A DNA stretch of 24,988 nt, from IMG/VR virus record IMGVR_UViG_3300042934_000522, positions 1 through 24,988 of that record; one strand, given 5' to 3'. Under the pieces are notes generated by a model. The model worked only from the letters and a program-made list of their open reading frames with translations, did not search any database and was not told the origin of the DNA. This document shows, piece by piece, positions 3,496 through 15,765 of this stretch. The translations under genes were made by a program, and so were the position numbers. Each line of letters starts with the position of its first letter. The first letter of the stretch is position 1. The stretch is from a virus.

Positions 3496-4569
3496 ATGGC
3501 AGAAACTAGCTACCCGTTTGCAGCAGACAGTGCCGGCGGTGGAGGCAAGCTCGTCTCCGTGGGTCAGTGGCAGAACATGTCGCACCTCTGGGCCCCTGAT
3601 GCAATTGACCACCAGCTTGTTCTTGGGGACACCGCTACCGGACTCCCCTTCCACTGTGCCCTGAACGGTTCCAATCTGGTAATCCAACCCGGGGAAGCCT
3701 GGGTTGGGGGGTTCAGGTACAAGCTTGACGCACCTCTGACCATCCCTGCTCCAACCAATAGCTCCCTCTCTCAGCGCCGGATTGACCTGGTGGTTATCCG
3801 AGCTGACATGGCCACCGGCTCAGTCAACATCAAGGTCGCCGAAGGCCAGCCGGCCATTGTTGCTCGGGAGCCTGAACCCAAGCGAGAGCTTGGCGGGATC
3901 TGGGAACTGCCTATCTGGTCTGTTGAGCTGGCCACCAACAACCAATCCCGGACGCTGAATGACCGGCGACGGTACAGCCAGTCCGGGTCTGTAGACGTGG
4001 CCTGGAACAGGGACAGCGTCTCCAGCTCGCTACCTGTAGGCACCTTCACCGTGGATCTGGACATCAACAGCTCCGGAGGACAGCAGGAGGGCTTCCGCGG
4101 TATCGACGGGGACATGGTCACCCGGGGTCTTGGTGCTCGTAGGAAGTGGACTCCTGACATCCTCACCGCATCCAACAAGCCTCCCTCGGCTAACAGAGAG
4201 GGCTACTGGCGTGTCATTGCCCCGGGAACTGCGTCCTTCTCCTTGCAGATCAGAAACACCTCTTCTACTGAGGTGAAGTCCTCGTCTGCCCTGGTGGTCA
4301 CTCTTCCCGAGATTCCTGCCAACACCATCCCCACGATTCTCACTGGCTACATCGATAACCCGGAGTCCAGGAACGGCCTCCCCAACATTGTGCACATCGT
4401 AGCCAAGACATCTGCTGTGGGACAGAACTACTTGTATTTGTACTACCCCGCAACGAGCACCCTTGATGAGGGTCTGAACGTTCTTACGACCATCCCGGGC
4501 AAGTCAACGCTGATTATCTCTGGAGTCTATGAGACGGGGCAATTCGAGGGGGCTTCGCTGAATGGCTAG
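3496..4569 (+). CDS. Minor tail / baseplate-like protein
   Basis: This 357-residue protein starts one base after the previous stop, with GAGGATGTGA as a likely ribosome binding site. The N-terminal half (LWAPDAIDHQLVLGD, then QRRIDLVVIRADM, then GGIWELPIW) resembles the N-terminal domain shared by many baseplate upper and minor tail proteins that assemble on the tail tip. The C-terminal half is Ser/Thr-rich beta sequence and may be a carbohydrate- or partner-binding domain. Its stop overlaps the next gene by 8 bases, implying translational coupling with the fibre gene. The exact role is inferred from position. Confidence 0.7.
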   Translation: MAETSYPFAADSAGGGGKLVSVGQWQNMSHLWAPDAIDHQLVLGDTATGLPFHCALNGSNLVIQPGEAWVGGFRYKLDAPLTIPAPTNSSLSQRRIDLVVIRADMATGSVNIKVAEGQPAIVAREPEPKRELGGIWELPIWSVELATNNQSRTLNDRRRYSQSGSVDVAWNRDSVSSSLPVGTFTVDLDINSSGGQQEGFRGIDGDMVTRGLGARRKWTPDILTASNKPPSANREGYWRVIAPGTASFSLQIRNTSSTEVKSSSALVVTLPEIPANTIPTILTGYIDNPESRNGLPNIVHIVAKTSAVGQNYLYLYYPATSTLDEGLNVLTTIPGKSTLIISGVYETGQFEGASLNG

Positions 4570-11413: not shown

Positions 11414-11871
11414 ACCCAATACTTTCCCTCAGCGCGACAAACGGCACGGAGTACGCGGGAAATCTCTGCTTCGATGAACGACCACTCAGCGCGAATGACG
11501 TGCCTTACATGAATGTCTGTTGTGCCGGCATCCCTCTTTGCCTTACGCCATTCCAGTGCTCTGTGAATGGTCGTGAGTTCCGTCCTGGTCAGTTCCCACA
11601 CCGACTCATCAGGAAGTCGATTGGTGGTGTAGGTGTTGGGGACCATGCCGCGGGCGGCATTGACGTACTCCGTTCCGGCCCACACGTTGTCTCGTGACTG
11701 GAGTTCCAGTGCTCTACGGAGTGTGGTTCGGACGTAGGCCGTACATGCATAGCTGTAGGTCGTTACGCGGTACACCTGCTCTGGCTTATGACCACACTGA
11801 GGACCGATGCTTGATTCGCAGCACGCCCACCCCGTGTCTCCGTGTGCGTTCTTACGTGGGTAGTCACTCAC
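11410..11871 (-). CDS. Hypothetical protein with N-terminal Cys cluster
   Basis: A 153-residue protein. Near the N-terminus WACCESSIGPQCGHK gives Cys/Cys/Cys/His that could hold a metal, and the rest is largely helical with many Arg and Thr. The GTG at 11871 has GAGGTAAGG upstream. It is the largest of the small leftward proteins in this stretch. No family is recognised. Confidence 0.7.
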   Translation of the reverse strand: MSDYPRKNAHGDTGWACCESSIGPQCGHKPEQVYRVTTYSYACTAYVRTTLRRALELQSRDNVWAGTEYVNAARGMVPNTYTTNRLPDESVWELTRTELTTIHRALEWRKAKRDAGTTDIHVRHVIRAEWSFIEAEISRVLRAVCRAEGKYWV

Positions 11872-11880
11872 TGCCTTACC

Positions 11881-12024
11881 TCACTTCTTGATTCCGTAGA
11901 AGCGTTCCATACTGTGGTTCTCTCGACAGGAGCAAGGGATCTTGCTCCACTTGTTTCGGTCGCACATATGGACTCGGCCCTTCATGTGCTTGCACGTGGA
12001 ACACGTGTTGTCCTTACCGATCAC
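11881..12024 (-). CDS. 47-residue Cys-rich protein, probable zinc binder
   Basis: Reading from GTG 12024 gives a 47-residue protein with CSTC, then CDRN, then CSC: five Cys at about 8, 11, 21, 31 and 33, with His 13, 19 and 37 nearby. The rest is basic. AGGAGGTAAGG precedes the start at an ideal distance. This resembles small phage zinc proteins that bind nucleic acid or a host factor; no specific family is recognised. Confidence 0.75.
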   Translation of the reverse strand: MIGKDNTCSTCKHMKGRVHMCDRNKWSKIPCSCRENHSMERFYGIKK

Positions 12025-12113
12025 TTCCTTACCTCCTGTTTGTGCACTAAGTGATTCCTAGCGACTCGGCAACGGGGCCGGACTTGCCGGCACCCTCTAT
12101 TCACCCCACCGAC

Positions 12114-12326
12114 TCATCCGTGACGGTAGAACTCCCGCAGCTCCCGCAGGTCGTTGTTCCTGAGGTAGTACGCCCATTCCGCGGAGACTCGTGCGCCGTT
12201 GTTGTACCTGATCTGAGCCAACACCCACTCAGGTACCGATCCGTCCGCGTTCTTTGTGTAGAACGTCTGGGAGTTGTGCCCCCCGTAGGGGGACTTGTCC
12301 GAGGCCTTGTCCAGGGTGACGCTCAT
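12114..12326 (-). CDS. Hypothetical protein
   Basis: A 70-residue protein from ATG 12326 with AAGAAGG upstream. It contains VPEWVLAQIRYNNG and ends in a charged helix (YYLRNNDLRELREFYRHG). A 15-bp box shared with three other sites lies 16-30 bases upstream of the start. Between its stop and the next gene (12025-12113) there is a small GCCGG hairpin and a possible 27-codon frame I do not trust. Confidence 0.65.
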   Translation of the reverse strand: MSVTLDKASDKSPYGGHNSQTFYTKNADGSVPEWVLAQIRYNNGARVSAEWAYYLRNNDLRELREFYRHG

Positions 12327-12341
12327 GCCTTCTTACCTTTC

Positions 12342-12356
12342 ATGTCGCATTTCAAC
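12342..12356 (-). promoter_or_regulatory. Copy of 15-bp box (leftward GTTGAAATGCGACAT)
   Basis: The box reads GTTGAAATGCGACAT leftward and lies just upstream of the ribosome binding site of the 12326 gene. A GGGCA/TGCCC hairpin with an A/T loop sits immediately upstream of it (about 12361-12379). See the other copies at 13614, 14284 and 14897. Confidence 0.5.
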
Positions 12357-12388
12357 TGGTGGGCAAAAAATATATGCCCCTGGGTGGA

Positions 12389-12556
12389 CTACCGAGAGAG
12401 GTACTTGCGGATGGACTGACGGAACTTGTTCTCGTCACCGCGCTTGACGCTGCGACGTTTGGCCTTACGTCCCTTACCCGGAGGCTGACCACAGCAGTAG
12501 CAGTCTCGCCCCCCGGGGCCGTCCGGACACTGCTTGCCAGGCATTCGTGCGTTCAC
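12389..12556 (-). CDS. 55-residue basic Cys-rich protein
   Basis: GTG at 12556 overlaps the last base of the upstream TAG and has GGGGAGGG upstream; ATG at 12544 is in frame but has no site. The protein has CPDG, then CYCCGQPPGKGRK, then a very basic C-terminal half (KAKRRSVKRG to IRKYLSR). The four Cys could bind zinc and the basic tail nucleic acid. The family is unknown. Confidence 0.7.
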   Translation of the reverse strand: MNARMPGKQCPDGPGGRDCYCCGQPPGKGRKAKRRSVKRGDENKFRQSIRKYLSR

Positions 12557-12762
12557 TAGCCCTCCCCTACAACCAGGAAGAAGGAAAGGACACGCTCCCC
12601 GTTGAACGAACGCAGAACGTCAACCAACACGTTCCGAGGAGACCAGTACATACGCACCTTGTGCGTCTTATTGTTGGTCAGTCGGCTGATCTCCGCATCC
12701 GCGGAGTCTGCGGAGACATAGTCGATGCCTCCGTTTTGCAGTCGAACGATGGGTGTGCTCAC
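12556..12762 (-). CDS. Hypothetical protein
   Basis: A 68-residue protein starting at GTG 12762, overlapping the upstream stop as GTGA. The sequence suggests a small alpha/beta domain: DYVSADSADAEISRL, then a YWSPRNVLVDVL strand, then VLSFFLVVGEG. Function unknown. Confidence 0.65.
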   Translation of the reverse strand: MSTPIVRLQNGGIDYVSADSADAEISRLTNNKTHKVRMYWSPRNVLVDVLRSFNGERVLSFFLVVGEG

Positions 12763-12944
12763 TGCCCCTCCACCTTTGCCACCAAACGAGCGTCGATCTC
12801 TGCCCCGTAGAAGTTCATCAGCACAGCAGCCGCGTGCTTAACGTGGTCCGGGGTGTCCGGGTGGGTACGGATAAGATCCGTCCTACTTCGAGCGTCGTAC
12901 AGATGATTCAGGGTCCATGTGTTGAGGGCGGGTATGTTCTTCAC
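12759..12944 (-). CDS. Hypothetical protein
   Basis: A 61-residue, mostly helical protein (VKHAAAVLMNFYGAEIDARL). The GTG start at 12944 overlaps the upstream stop as GTGA, and its stop overlaps the next start the same way. No family is recognised. Confidence 0.65.
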   Translation of the reverse strand: MKNIPALNTWTLNHLYDARSRTDLIRTHPDTPDHVKHAAAVLMNFYGAEIDARLVAKVEGQ

Positions 12945-13180
12945 TTGCTTGTCCCCTTGTACTCAGTGACCTTGACCGCCCCCACGAGACCCGGATACCC
13001 GATAGCCTCACGAACGATTTGGGCTAGGTGATGTGCGCAAGCCCAACTTTCAAAAGTAGTTCCGTTATTGGGGACACCCCCTTTGTTTGTGGTCCACTCA
13101 AGGTAGAAAGCGGGTTTGTTGGTGCATGCTCGGTACAAGCCATGCCCCCTCTTGGGGTACTCCCCTAGGCACTTATCCAT
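12941..13180 (-). CDS. Small Cys/His protein, possible zinc ribbon
   Basis: A 79-residue protein from ATG 13180 (GAGAGGAC upstream). Cys4, Cys19 and an ACAHH cluster at about 47-51 could make one zinc site around a beta hairpin (KPAFYLEWTTN), a layout like the 10513-10710 protein. It is coupled downstream by a GTGA overlap. Function unknown. Confidence 0.7.
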   Translation of the reverse strand: MDKCLGEYPKRGHGLYRACTNKPAFYLEWTTNKGGVPNNGTTFESWACAHHLAQIVREAIGYPGLVGAVKVTEYKGTSK

Positions 13181-13193
13181 GTCTTGTGTCCTC

Positions 13194-13469
13194 TCAGACC
13201 GCACGCTTGACGAACTTGTAGGGCCCGCTGTTGCCGGCACGCATCATCAGTCGACCGTTCTTGCTCCATCGGGTCTCGTAGCCCTCGTAGAGGGCCGTGA
13301 ACACGTCGCTGTGCTCCTTGTACGCCTCAGCGTGGAATGCCGCCCACTCCTGCTCAACCGTCATGTCCGGGGCCTGATGTGTCATGCCCACAGGGGGAGC
13401 TGTGACCATGCCGCCGATACCGAGACCGAGCACCACGGTCATGACCGCGGAAATAACCCACGTGATCAT
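13194..13469 (-). CDS. Small protein with N-terminal membrane or signal segment
   Basis: A 91-residue protein from ATG 13469 with AATAGGAGCAAGC upstream. Residues 1-24 (MITWVISAVMTVVLGLGIGG) form one hydrophobic helix with no basic start, so a membrane anchor or signal peptide is possible. The rest is soluble, helical and charged (EQEWAAFHAEAYKEHSD). It may face the outside of the host membrane. Structured element 13515-13569 lies upstream. Confidence 0.7.
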   Translation of the reverse strand: MITWVISAVMTVVLGLGIGGMVTAPPVGMTHQAPDMTVEQEWAAFHAEAYKEHSDVFTALYEGYETRWSKNGRLMMRAGNSGPYKFVKRAV

Positions 13470-13514
13470 TGCTTGCTCCTATTCCTGCTAGTCGCTGCAT
13501 ACTGCGTATTCAGG

Positions 13515-13569
13515 TAGACGGAAGTAAGAGGGCGCCTGTACGAGACAGGCACCCGATACCTCTTATCTA
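13515..13569 (-). repeat. Structured intergenic element, copy 3
   Basis: On the plus strand: TAGACGGAAGTAAGA (13515-13529), stem GGGCGCCTGT (13530-13539), loop ACGAG, stem ACAGGCACCC (13545-13554; one C/A mismatch), then GATACCTCTTATCTA (13555-13569). The flanks match two other elements at 14007 and 14300, while the stem sequence differs. Confidence 0.65.
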
Positions 13570-13613
13570 GGTCAGTGCATGAGCGTGTGAATGATGTTCC
13601 TGAACTGTGCGAT

Positions 13614-13628
13614 ATGTCGCCTGTCAAC
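13614..13628 (-). promoter_or_regulatory. Copy of 15-bp box (leftward GTTGACAGGCGACAT)
   Basis: It lies 5 bases after the stop of the 13634-13990 gene, in the leftward sense. It contains TTGACA, but no good -10 follows at 17 bases, so promoter activity is doubtful. The 13470-13633 gap holds only this box and element copy 3. Confidence 0.45.
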
Positions 13629-13633
13629 CCTGA

Positions 13634-13990
13634 CTAGTCTGTCGTCTCTACGTAAATCAGGTAGCCGTTCTTGCTCTCCCAGTGGTAGCCCTGCTTCACA
13701 AGTCCGTCGAACACGAACACCGACCGACCGCAGTCGGCGCACTGGTGGGGGTGGCTGCTCGTGCTGGCCTTGATAGGGCCCTGGTCCACCACGCAACGCA
13801 CCACGTTGCTGGGGATGGTGCTGTCCTGCTTGGCCTGCGGCTCAAACTTGCTGTGGTCCACGTTGTGGCCAATCAGTGTCAGGTTCGAGTAGAGACGAAC
13901 CGAGGAAAGCATCTGTGCTGCTTCGAGTTCATCCGTGAACTCAGGGCGGAAGACGTTGTCCTGGTCGTCCTTGTACTGCACGTAGAACAT
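13634..13990 (-). CDS. Hypothetical protein
   Basis: ATG at 13990 with AGGAGCACC upstream gives 118 residues; a longer in-frame extension runs into the stem-loop element and is rejected. It has a beta-rich start (MFYVQYKDDQDNVF), a central helix, and a CADC pair at about 84-87 before an aromatic C-terminal strand pair. A single Cys pair could join a metal site in a dimer. The family is unknown. Confidence 0.7.
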   Translation of the reverse strand: MFYVQYKDDQDNVFRPEFTDELEAAQMLSSVRLYSNLTLIGHNVDHSKFEPQAKQDSTIPSNVVRCVVDQGPIKASTSSHPHQCADCGRSVFVFDGLVKQGYHWESKNGYLIYVETTD

Positions 13991-14006
13991 TGGTGCTCCT
14001 GTTGTG

Positions 14007-14085
14007 TAGGCGACAGTAAGGGAGTGCACGTAGTCGGCATCAGCGATGCTGACGCCTGAGACGTGCACTCGATACTGCTTACCTA
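14007..14085 (-). repeat. Structured intergenic element, copy 1
   Basis: Plus strand: TAGGCGACAGTAAGG (14007-14021), outer stem GAGTGCACGT (14022-14031) with ACGTGCACTC (14061-14070), inner stem GTCGGCATC (14033-14041) with GATGCTGAC (14045-14053; one G-T pair), then GATACTGCTTACCTA (14071-14085). It is the most elaborate of the three copies and fills the gap between the 14090-14272 gene and the 13990 start. Confidence 0.68.
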
Positions 14086-14089
14086 GTTG

Positions 14090-14272
14090 CTAGCCCTTGG
14101 TGACGATGGCTCGCTGAACTACAGCCACCGTGCTGCCCGATGCGTTGACGATGCAGAACATTCGGCCATCACTGCCGTTCCACCAGGCCCCCTTAGCTCC
14201 CCGGATGGCCTCCTCCAAGGTGTTGGAGTGAGACGTAACCTCTCGGTGATCCATGGTCTTGTACTTGCTCAT
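14090..14272 (-). CDS. Hypothetical protein
   Basis: A 60-residue protein from ATG 14272 with AGGAGCGGTC upstream. It holds a helix (SNTLEEAIRGAKGAWW) and a strand pair (RMFCIVNASGSTVAVVQRAIV), suggesting a compact alpha/beta fold. It is flanked on both sides by the structured elements and preceded by a copy of the 15-bp box. Confidence 0.7.
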   Translation of the reverse strand: MSKYKTMDHREVTSHSNTLEEAIRGAKGAWWNGSDGRMFCIVNASGSTVAVVQRAIVTKG

Positions 14273-14283
14273 GACCGCTCCTA

Positions 14284-14298
14284 ATGTCGCATTTCAAC
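14284..14298 (-). promoter_or_regulatory. Copy of 15-bp box (leftward GTTGAAATGCGACAT)
   Basis: Identical to the 12342 copy. It lies directly before the AGGAG of the 14272 gene and directly abuts structured element copy 2. The spacing leaves no room for a normal -10 before the ribosome binding site, so a role in translation or as a protein site is as likely as a promoter. Confidence 0.5.
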
Positions 14299-14299
14299 C

Positions 14300-14356
14300 T
14301 AGGCGGAAACAAGAGGGCGCACGGCGTGTATCCGTGCGCCCGATGCTTCTTACCTA
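14300..14356 (-). repeat. Structured intergenic element, copy 2
   Basis: Plus strand: TAGGCGGAAACAAGA (14300-14314), stem GGGCGCACGG (14315-14324), loop CGTGTAT, stem CCGTGCGCCC (14332-14341; perfect), then GATGCTTCTTACCTA (14342-14356). It begins 1 base past the upstream gene's stop in the leftward sense. Leftward, TCTTGTTT follows the stem, so terminator function is possible. Confidence 0.68.
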
Positions 14357-14357
14357 C

Positions 14358-14507
14358 TCAGCTACCAGCGTGACACAAGTCACGCCATTCCCAGTATTGG
14401 TGCAGGTCTTCCACGCTGCGTAGCGTTGGTCCGTCAATCGCAGGATCGAACAGACTGTCGCTCATCTCTGGGTAAAAGACTCCAGGGACATACAACTCCG
14501 GAACCAT
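14358..14507 (-). CDS. Hypothetical 49-residue acidic protein
   Basis: A short gene read from the minus strand: it starts MVPELYVPGVFYPEM, continues LFDPAIDGP and ends WEWRDLCHAGS. GGGAG lies upstream of the ATG. It is acidic and rich in Pro and aromatic residues. It is the first confidently called gene downstream of the leftward promoter at 14882-14910. Function unknown. Confidence 0.65.
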   Translation of the reverse strand: MVPELYVPGVFYPEMSDSLFDPAIDGPTLRSVEDLHQYWEWRDLCHAGS

Positions 14508-14519
14508 CACTACTCCCTA

Positions 14520-14717
14520 CTACGTTGGGACCACAGGGGGTTGATCAACCTTCACAGCGTGACCGGTACGGAGATATCCACGGTACGTCGGGAGAACCGC
14601 CCCCGGGGAGCCTCCCACAGGGAGGCTATCCCTAGCCTGTGTCAGTCTCACAGCGGGGACGCAAACCAAGATCACCTCGCCCAATGGGTTGCCACTGTAC
14701 CCAATGGTTCTGATCAA
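14520..14717 (-). CDS. Doubtful small gene inside an inverted-repeat element
   Basis: A 65-codon frame from TTG 14717 (LIRTIGYSGNPLGEVI at its start, DQPPVVPT at its end). AGGGGG abuts the start too closely for a good ribosome binding site, and both ends are encoded by the 17-bp inverted repeats. A non-coding leader RNA explains the stretch as well. Confidence 0.25.
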   Translation of the reverse strand: MIRTIGYSGNPLGEVILVCVPAVRLTQARDSLPVGGSPGAVLPTYRGYLRTGHAVKVDQPPVVPT

Positions 14718-14727
14718 CCCCCTGTGG
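14531..14727. repeat. 197-bp element bounded by 17-bp perfect inverted repeats
   Basis: CCACAGGGGGTTGATCA (14531-14547) and TGATCAACCCCCTGTGG (14711-14727) are exact complements. Inside are an 8-bp hairpin (AGCCTCCC 14609-14616 with GGGAGGCT 14620-14627) and a TGGGT/ACCCA pair. It lies in the leader of the leftward transcript from 14882-14910. No clear target-site duplication flanks it, so a structured leader RNA fits better than a transposon. Confidence 0.65.
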
Positions 14728-14881
14728 AGTCTAGGGGAATGTACTGCGCTTTAGCAGTCGTTCTAGGCGGCTTCACTGTTGAGTTCTCAATGTACTGAGG
14801 CTTCCTTGGCTGGCACCCTGTTGGGTGCTTCCCTTCCGGGCCCTGTCCTCCGGGGGCTACTGCCCCCTTCCGACATGTAGA

Positions 14882-14910
14882 ACGCTACGCCTGCTCATGT
14901 CGCATGTCAA
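14882..14910 (-). promoter_or_regulatory. Leftward sigma70-type promoter
   Basis: Leftward: TTGACA (complement of 14905-14910), 17-base spacer, TAGCGT (complement of 14882-14887), a near-ideal match to Streptomyces housekeeping promoters (TTGACR, TAGRRT). The -35 lies within the fourth copy of the 15-bp box (14897-14911). Transcription would begin near 14875 and run through about 370 bases of structured leader to the 14507 start. The GGGGGC/GCCCCC and GCACCC/GGGTGC hairpins at 14816-14870 lie in this leader. Confidence 0.7.
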
Positions 14911-15225
14911 CCTGGACCCCCAGGCTTCTTTCATTCATTCATGATCCTGTGGGGAGGGAGCGCAGTAGCCCACATCTGTATGCAGGGGCCTACCTCTACA
15001 TACGCGCGTATGCGCGCACGCGTATAGCACAGTACGTGGACATGCACAACCCACAAGGTCATGGGCATAGAGGGACCTAGTAGGCCCTCATGAGGACACC
15101 AGGCAAGGTGGACTAGCTCCTGCCTGAGGCAGGGGTGTGGCTCGCTCCCTGGGCCTTGCATGCCTCCAGGCATGCCTCCTGCCCATCCCGTCCGAATGCC
15201 CATTGAATGAATGAACTCAGGCATT

Positions 15226-15256
15226 CAATGCCGGCATGTATTGAATGCCGGCATGC
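15226..15256. repeat. Paired 10-bp palindromes 17 bp apart
   Basis: ATGCCGGCAT occurs at 15228-15237 and 15245-15254, each a perfect palindrome, within the 12-bp direct repeat AATGCCGGCATG. The spacing is about 1.6 helical turns. GGCATTCAAT (15220-15229) and ATTGAATGCC (15240-15249) also form an inverted repeat across them. Such layouts are typical of operators for dimeric regulators. Confidence 0.6.
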
Positions 15257-15520
15257 TATCCCGCCACACCTGCCCGCCTTTATTCATTCATTTGCATTGC
15301 TGTGCGCACACCCGGGGTAATGCATTTGTACATACACAACGGACCCGCCGGGGGCACCTTCCTTCGATCGCGTACGGGTAATGAAGCCTTCAGAGCCTCC
15401 CTAACGGCCTAACAGCCCTGTGCCCGCCCAAGTCCCTCCAGGCCCCCTAAAAGCCCCTCTGAGAGCCTCTCAGGCCCTTTCTCGGCTCCACAGAGCCTCT
15501 CCCCCACCCTCGGGACCGTA

Positions 15521-15537
15521 AATGAATGAAAGAAGTG
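15521..15537 (+). repeat. 17-bp direct repeat AATGAATGAAAGAAGTG, copy A
   Basis: Identical to 15723-15739. A 15-base version (AATGAATGAAAGAAG) lies on the minus strand at 14925-14939, just upstream of the leftward promoter. It could start a 24-codon frame (MNERSALNC...), but no ribosome binding site is visible. Confidence 0.65.
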
Positions 15538-15616
15538 CCCTCAACTGTGTGATTCGGGTCTCAGTTTCAGGGATTCTGTCACCAACCACCGCGTAGTGAC
15601 ACCGACATATATATTG

Positions 15617-15765
15617 TAAGGGGTTTGGAATATACCCCCTTAGTGATCTTGAGGGAGACCCTAGAGCCCCGCCGGGGGAGGCGGGGCGACAGAGGTAGTG
15701 CCGGACCCCTGAAGTCCGGCACAATGAATGAAAGAAGTGTGATCCGACCCCCCGAAGGGTCGGAT
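15617..15765. other. Array of four perfect hairpins
   Basis: Stems: TAAGGGG 15617-15623 with 15636-15642; GCCCCGCC 15666-15673 with 15680-15687; TGCCGGAC 15699-15706 with 15714-15721; ATCCGACCC 15742-15750 with 15757-15765. Loops are 6-12 bases. None has a proper U tract. Repeat copy B lies between the third and fourth. A compact structured RNA or a set of protein sites is possible. Confidence 0.6.
15723..15739 (+). repeat. 17-bp direct repeat AATGAATGAAAGAAGTG, copy B
   Basis: Exact copy of 15521-15537, 202 bp downstream. It could start a 17-codon frame (MNERSVIRPPEG...) whose codons overlap the fourth hairpin of the array; no ribosome binding site is visible. A partial copy (GAATGAATT) follows at 15772. 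Confidence 0.65.

Follow-up and report, generated by a model that had tools for sequence, protein, structure and literature searches.

A covarying family of RNA elements between the early genes of Streptomyces phage Ibantik and related viruses

The DNA analysed here is a virus record of 24,988 bases (the window), and the features of interest lie at the beginning of a leftward early operon, whose sense strand is the minus strand. A promoter-like motif is followed in this region by small genes with RNA elements between them, a last element, and a conserved gene that we call Mem91 (Table 1). The same order is common to nine related genomes. Mem91 has relatives of 91-93 aa across the family but no confident match in Pfam or PHROG. 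There is no tRNA and no tmRNA in the window.

Table 1. Features of the early leftward region (positions are those of the window; fold z is relative to shuffled sequences, and scores in bits are those of the covariance model).
Feature	Position	Strand	Remarks
Repeated motif overlapping TTGACA of the putative early leftward promoter	14898..14911	-	-10 box TAGCGT after 17 nt, by eye
Small early gene, 49 aa, upstream of copy 3	14358..14507	-	Own gene calling; 1 nt separates its stop codon from the element
RNA element copy 3, transcribed first	14300..14356	-	57 nt; fold z -5.3; model score 71.2 bits
Small early gene, 60 aa, between copies 3 and 2	14090..14272	-	Own gene calling
RNA element copy 2, long tip with palindromic insert	14007..14085	-	79 nt; fold z -7.7; model score 64.1 bits
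Early gene, 118 aa, between copies 2 and 1	13634..13990	-	PHROG 16954
RNA element copy 1, transcribed last and followed by Mem91	13515..13569	-	55 nt; fold z -5.2; model score 75.6 bits
Mem91, conserved 91-aa gene after the last element	13194..13469	-	Relatives in all nine genomes

No promoter was returned by a sigma-70 scan of 11800-15300, and the putative early promoter therefore rests on the repeated motif and on a reading by eye. This directional 14-nt motif (GTTGAMWNGMGACM) is found in the window at 14898-14911, 14285-14298, 13615-13628 and 12343-12356, always on the minus strand, and it recurs in all nine genomes, each with a genome-specific variant. Its first copy overlaps the promoter-like TTGACA and the others are present in short intergenic gaps, often right behind an element. 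A stricter form of the motif occurs in Ibantik 10 times on the minus strand and once on the plus strand. The motif looks similar to the stoperator sites of cluster A mycobacteriophages. Also, a perfect 17-bp inverted repeat (14531-14547 and 14711-14727, 163 nt apart) lies between the promoter-like motif and the first gene, and AATGAATGAAAGAAG-type repeats in both orientations are present at 14925-15737, near the match to the right end of Ibantik at 15356; this is perhaps an origin or end region.

A preliminary description of the locus, given for the plus strand, had reported three stem-loops with conserved flanks, each between a stop codon and the next start of the leftward operon. Pattern matching and folding agree with it on the coordinates, flanks and pairing, and gene calling agrees on the placement. 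With a tolerance of up to 2 mismatches, the window contains 4 matches to the left-flank pattern (chance mean 0.90), of which 3 are exact and lie at the elements; to the right-flank pattern it contains 3, every one exact and at an element, where chance gives a mean of 0.12 and no shuffle out of 100 yields as many. Folding of both strands, a check proposed in the same description, gave better pairing on the minus strand (Table 1) than on the plus strand (shuffle z -3.9, -5.5 and -3.6 for copies 1, 2 and 3). The elements are real, and the evidence favours the minus strand, that is, the operon's own mRNA, over the strand on which they had been described. Some details also changed on folding. The one mismatch attributed to copy 3 falls in copy 1 in the plus-strand fold, and the extra inner stem attributed to copy 1 belongs to copy 2. 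Also, the central stems are not wholly different in sequence as had been stated; in the minus-strand reading, copy 3 shares 6 of the 10 bases of its 5′ arm with copy 1 and 7 with copy 2, as judged by eye.

On the minus strand, the three copies have a common frame of 21 pairs, each element consisting of 5 bp, an AA/C internal loop, 6 bp, a UC/YCU internal loop, a 10-bp stem and a free tip. Copy 2 is long because its tip carries a palindromic insert of about 25-27 nt, which was found again elsewhere in related phages. The sites of the insert are 14033-14060 in the window (copy 2 tip), 3496-3522 in Ibantik (NC_073462) and L035:2641-2661 in genome G002. The copy 2 tip is identical at 27 of 27 bases to the loop of a hairpin after the integrase gene of Ibantik, and the G002 insert (21 of 21 identical) interrupts a stretch that is continuous in Ibantik. 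There is one copy per genome, the exact 20-mer is present in no other viral contig, and the insert is possibly a tiny mobile hairpin.

A megablast search of the phage collection returned a single relative of the window, Streptomyces phage Ibantik, in two records that align over 32% of the window with 81.8% identity; this phage carries three such elements at the corresponding end of its genome. A first covariance model was built from six copies and located further copies in IMG/VR contigs reached by pattern; a second, built from 25 copies, was run over the whole records of nine genomes. The family comprises 26 copies, all scoring at least 28 bits, in the window (3 copies), Ibantik (3) and seven IMG/VR contigs (G001, 2; G002, 3; G003, 3; G004, 2; G005, 3; G006, 4; G008, 3). 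Three pattern scans of viral contigs returned seven genomes altogether, while a hand-written structure scan was too loose for use alone. An independent route, a scan guided by a Mem91 profile, gave 11 loci, of which six were known before, one lies in a newly found close genome (G008) and four belong to distant relatives that lack elements; it reached six of the seven genomes from the pattern scans. One copy of G008 (L046:2284-2338) needed the filters to be switched off for its detection (28.7 and 30.6 bits) and is absent from two model runs.

Beyond these copies, the 25-copy model found no further convincing one in the nine records: four extra hits scored at most 18.2 bits, and of these, three fall on known elements but on their opposite strand. 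Three of the distant phages with Mem91 (G009, G010, G012) have no copy by the model, the best hit with filters off scoring 13.4 bits. The G011 contig, from the fourth such phage, stops at the gene and has hits of 19.9 and 9.7 bits elsewhere, the better of which matches the upper stem alone. BLAST of one element against plasmids and other phage records gave none apart from Ibantik, a search with limited reach for divergent copies. One pattern scan of bacterial genomes gave a single match, in an Ignavibacteriae MAG. A whole-genome model search, in which 150 of 336 candidates were scored, listed no match for it at E ≤ 1; the site scored directly gave 17.2 bits (E 0.0017), below all 26 accepted copies, and we take it as a chance match because it was picked by pattern from a very large collection. 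The elements thus seem to be absent from prophages, which is only suggested since the pattern recovers just 10 of the 17 elements in its six matching contigs.

Standard pairs make up 96.8% of the 525 pair cells in an alignment of 25 copies, and 12 of the 21 pairs are altered on both sides (1 of 500 shuffles gets there). The covariation score is 0.544 against 0.269 for shuffled and 0.064-0.117 for slid alignments, though it is raised both by the fitting of the alignment to the structure and by the relatedness of the copies. One of five covariation measures, that of further pair types, is not above the shuffles (28 against 29.0). RNAalifold predicts 20 of the 21 pairs unaided from this alignment, and single-sequence folding had already given the 21-pair frame in the three copies of the window. 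A covariance search of related phages had been named in the preliminary description as the test of its proposal that structure is under selection, and the strong covariation seen here supports that proposal.

To which molecule the structure belongs can be read from the pairs that are not Watson-Crick. In 483 cells from 23 copies we counted 389 Watson-Crick pairs, 77 G-U pairs and 17 unpaired cells, of which 5 are A-C, equivalent to G-U on the other strand. Pairing is kept in 96.5% of the cells in sense RNA, 81.6% in antisense RNA and 80.5% in DNA, and the sense fold is more stable than the antisense fold in 25 of the 26 copies. The 77 G-U cells as against 5 A-C cells indicate that the sense RNA is kept, rather than the DNA or the antisense RNA. 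Sequence comparison thus shows the structure of the element, its strand and its conservation, and the covariation supports selection on that structure.

Conservation is unevenly distributed within the element. Mean column conservation over 23 copies is 0.84 in the internal loops, 0.77 in the lower helix and 0.59 in the upper stem, which is the most variable paired part; the 21-pair frame is constant and the tip varies. At the three positions of the AA/C loop, A is found in 22 of 22 and in 22 of 23 copies and C in all 23, and the pair adjoining this loop is U-G in 24 of 25. Four divergent copies, each first in the transcript of its genome (G002, G004, G006, G008), have the upper loop placed or sized differently.

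Gaps between genes were examined one by one in seven genomes (all except G001 and G008) using our own gene calls and the Ibantik annotation. From the first gene to Mem91, all 17 gaps longer than 12 nt hold one element and none of the 4 gaps of up to 12 nt does; four more elements precede the first gene. After Mem91 none of 34 gaps holds an element, though 12 of these measure at least 40 nt. In the same genomes the elements begin 204-1563 nt past the promoter-like motif. The distance from the element end to the start codon is 13-64 nt (median 18.5), and no Shine-Dalgarno match was seen ahead of Mem91 in G004. On the upstream side, the first three bases of the element (UAG) are the stop codon of the upstream ORF in 9 of the 26 copies, made up of 7 among 23 and 2 among the remaining 3, the starts of these ORFs being Shine-Dalgarno-like, and in 2 more a UAA at offset 4 of the element is the upstream stop. 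An unannotated 43-aa cysteine-containing ORF of Ibantik (L004:14008-14139, minus strand) has the first three bases of an element as its stop codon.

Copy 1 of the window is 96% like an element of G006, a genome that has an extra gene with its own element ahead of Mem91. Judged from such comparisons, the genes between elements are exchanged, and this exchange may be a by-product of the repeated sequence. That the element subtype tracks the downstream gene is weakly supported: elements before Mem91 agree in their lower part at 0.82 compared to 0.78 for other pairs, and the copy preceding Mem91 has another such copy as nearest neighbour in 5 of 9 cases. A chimeric 86-aa gene was noticed in G008 (L046:2352-2609), which by eye starts like the first early gene of G006 and ends like the small early genes of G003 and G004.

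The mRNA is probably cut or controlled at this element. The short list offered in the preliminary description, namely regulatory RNA, processing site or specialised terminator, is still the right one, with no single member proved. We rank RNase III first since the elements resemble T7 signals in having a constant two-turn frame and in lying in early mRNA near ribosome-binding sites; on this likeness we tentatively predict that they are RNase III-type processing sites of the early mRNA, the cleavage being something we infer. The immediate-early transcript would carry, in its sense strand, one cis-acting hairpin in each larger intercistronic gap, and the host double-strand endonuclease RNase III would cut these hairpins as it does in the early mRNA of T7. 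Two helices of one turn each, with 11 bp on the lower and 10 bp on the upper side of the UC/YCU loop, would be held by the enzyme, which would cut within or next to that loop; the AA/C loop next to the U-G pair may set register or affinity, and the tip would be free. The early mRNA would thereby be split into one-gene or two-gene mRNAs, each starting just upstream of a ribosome-binding site, and the upstream piece would end in a stem. The consensus does contain such a duplex, of roughly two turns and with an internal loop interrupting it (11 bp + 10 bp). Against RNase III is the fact that the elements stop at Mem91 despite the 12 long gaps that follow. In T7, RNase III sites are present among later genes too. 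Moreover, RNase III generally reads shape more than sequence, so that the conserved AA/C loop, U-G pair and lower helix exceed its needs, and the conserved loops suggest a reader with more sequence preference than RNase III.

A phage or host RNA-binding protein other than a nuclease, which binds the element and controls translation or stability of the next gene, is the next explanation, rather unlikely but still a serious rival. The internal loops are on average the most conserved class, as expected of a binding site, and the elements end shortly ahead of the start codon, but the ribosome-binding site is outside the element. Mem91 itself occurs also in phages that have no element, and it is therefore no obvious partner protein. 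We regard as unlikely a more specific proposal, in which the family is a new class of mRNA element, a dedicated protein reads the AA/C loop and the U-G pair, and the element serves as a standard connector for exchangeable early genes. If this were true, the RNA joint would often give the preceding gene its stop and the following gene its leader, and any gene inserted in the immediate-early segment would be processed and expressed separately.

The elements might also be U-poor terminators of the actinophage type, or attenuators, that grade early gene expression, which we find unlikely although this too is a serious rival. A consensus scan for terminators does list the upper stem of copies 1 and 3 on the minus strand, with tails TCTTACTT and TCTTGTTT, and copy 3 on the plus strand too, and 12 of 25 copies have at least 5 T in the 8 nt past the upper stem. 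However, the other 13 have at most 4, and column 83 within this tail is a purine in 25 of 25 copies and covaries with column 12 (UA in 17, CG in 8), which argues that pairing is kept there and not a U run. The outer 5-bp helix and the AA/C loop would also be superfluous in a terminator. The early region of phiC31 is said to have terminators without poly-U tails, reportedly described by Ingham et al. in 1995, and these early hairpins are likewise intergenic and in an actinophage early region; yet phiC31 has no homologue of the elements (no model match; best 13.5 bits, E 0.41).

A signal for antitermination in the nascent RNA, letting polymerase read the long early operon, would fit the presence of all copies near the start of that operon and of none later. 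The HK022 put RNA is such a signal and has two stem-loops. Here, though, there is one stem-loop, and two to four copies are tied to start codons and often to the preceding stop instead of one copy in the leader, which makes this role very unlikely. Finally, it is highly improbable that the element acts in DNA, whether as a recombination joint of gene cassettes, a protein operator or a folded single-strand site, because, although the genes between elements are exchanged (window copy 1 and G006), Watson-Crick pairing explains only 80.5% of the cells and 77 further ones are G-U in the sense strand. Two further candidates were rejected, stop-codon readthrough as 22 of the 26 element lengths are not multiples of three, and a self-cleaving ribozyme by judgement of loop size.

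Repeats upstream of start codons are known in several actinophage groups and are given as of unknown function in the cited passages (PMC3203893, PMC7302621). In one such family, covariation and the strand test now clearly indicate the sense RNA, and a direct experiment thereby becomes possible. The first genes, which are small and exchangeable, form a segment marked by the elements, and this is a likely place for host-takeover functions.

On comparison with known systems, Rfam 15 gave no match at gathering level in the window and none up to E 5 in 13480-14400. Searches of open-licence PMC literature, in which subscription papers are mostly not covered, found no account of these elements by title or abstract start. 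The nearest described actinophage repeats that we found are the ESAS of cluster K mycobacteriophages, which are presented in the cited passages as imperfect inverted repeats with a variable spacer, upstream of non-structural gene starts, tied to gene families and of unknown function, and as making up about half of the SAS sites (PMC3203893). Unlike our elements, the ESAS are built of two arms whose 17-bp sequence is conserved, and they accompany a 13-bp SAS (same passages). The SAS (GGGATAGGAGCCC) has 12 matches in the window at up to 3 mismatches against 10.5 expected, none with fewer than 2, and the model has no match in the right parts of the cluster K phages TM4 and Anaya (best 12.8 bits). 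When the 56 nt ahead of each of 25 SAS sites were folded, the sense strand did better in just 6. The repeats of clusters O, EC, EF, EG and EI, several of them near starts and of unknown function, are set apart by their description as short intergenic DNA motifs in the passages cited (PMC4351075, PMC7302621).

A hairpin with an internal loop between rpsO and pnp of S. coelicolor is cut by Streptomyces RNase III according to the cited passage (PMC10126417), and by this description it is, like our elements, intercistronic, but it belongs to a chromosomal gene pair. The elements do not share sequence with T7, whose genome has no homologue (best model score 9.9 bits). RNase III sites are reportedly present in the early mRNA of the Bacillus phage SP82 (Panganiban and Whiteley are said to have found them in 1983), which by description alone is alike in having several processing sites in one phage early transcript. 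Ten T7 sites were folded at their presumed positions, of which one gave a clean fold, five poorer or other folds and four none; the leader of T7 gene 4.7 folds into 10 bp, a loop and 10 bp, and ends 23 nt before the gene. The T7 R1.1 signal, located between early genes 1.0 and 1.1, is given in the cited passage (PMC6121014) as an RNA of 60 nt whose internal loop is asymmetric (4/5). From that passage and our own fold, the T7 signals are, like our elements, intercistronic hairpins of an early transcript near ribosome-binding sites, with two helices of about one turn and an internal loop, and our family differs in its conserved lower helix and loops and in the extra AA/C loop. Should RNase III indeed cut the elements, processing of early mRNA in the manner of T7 would extend to the Streptomyces phages.
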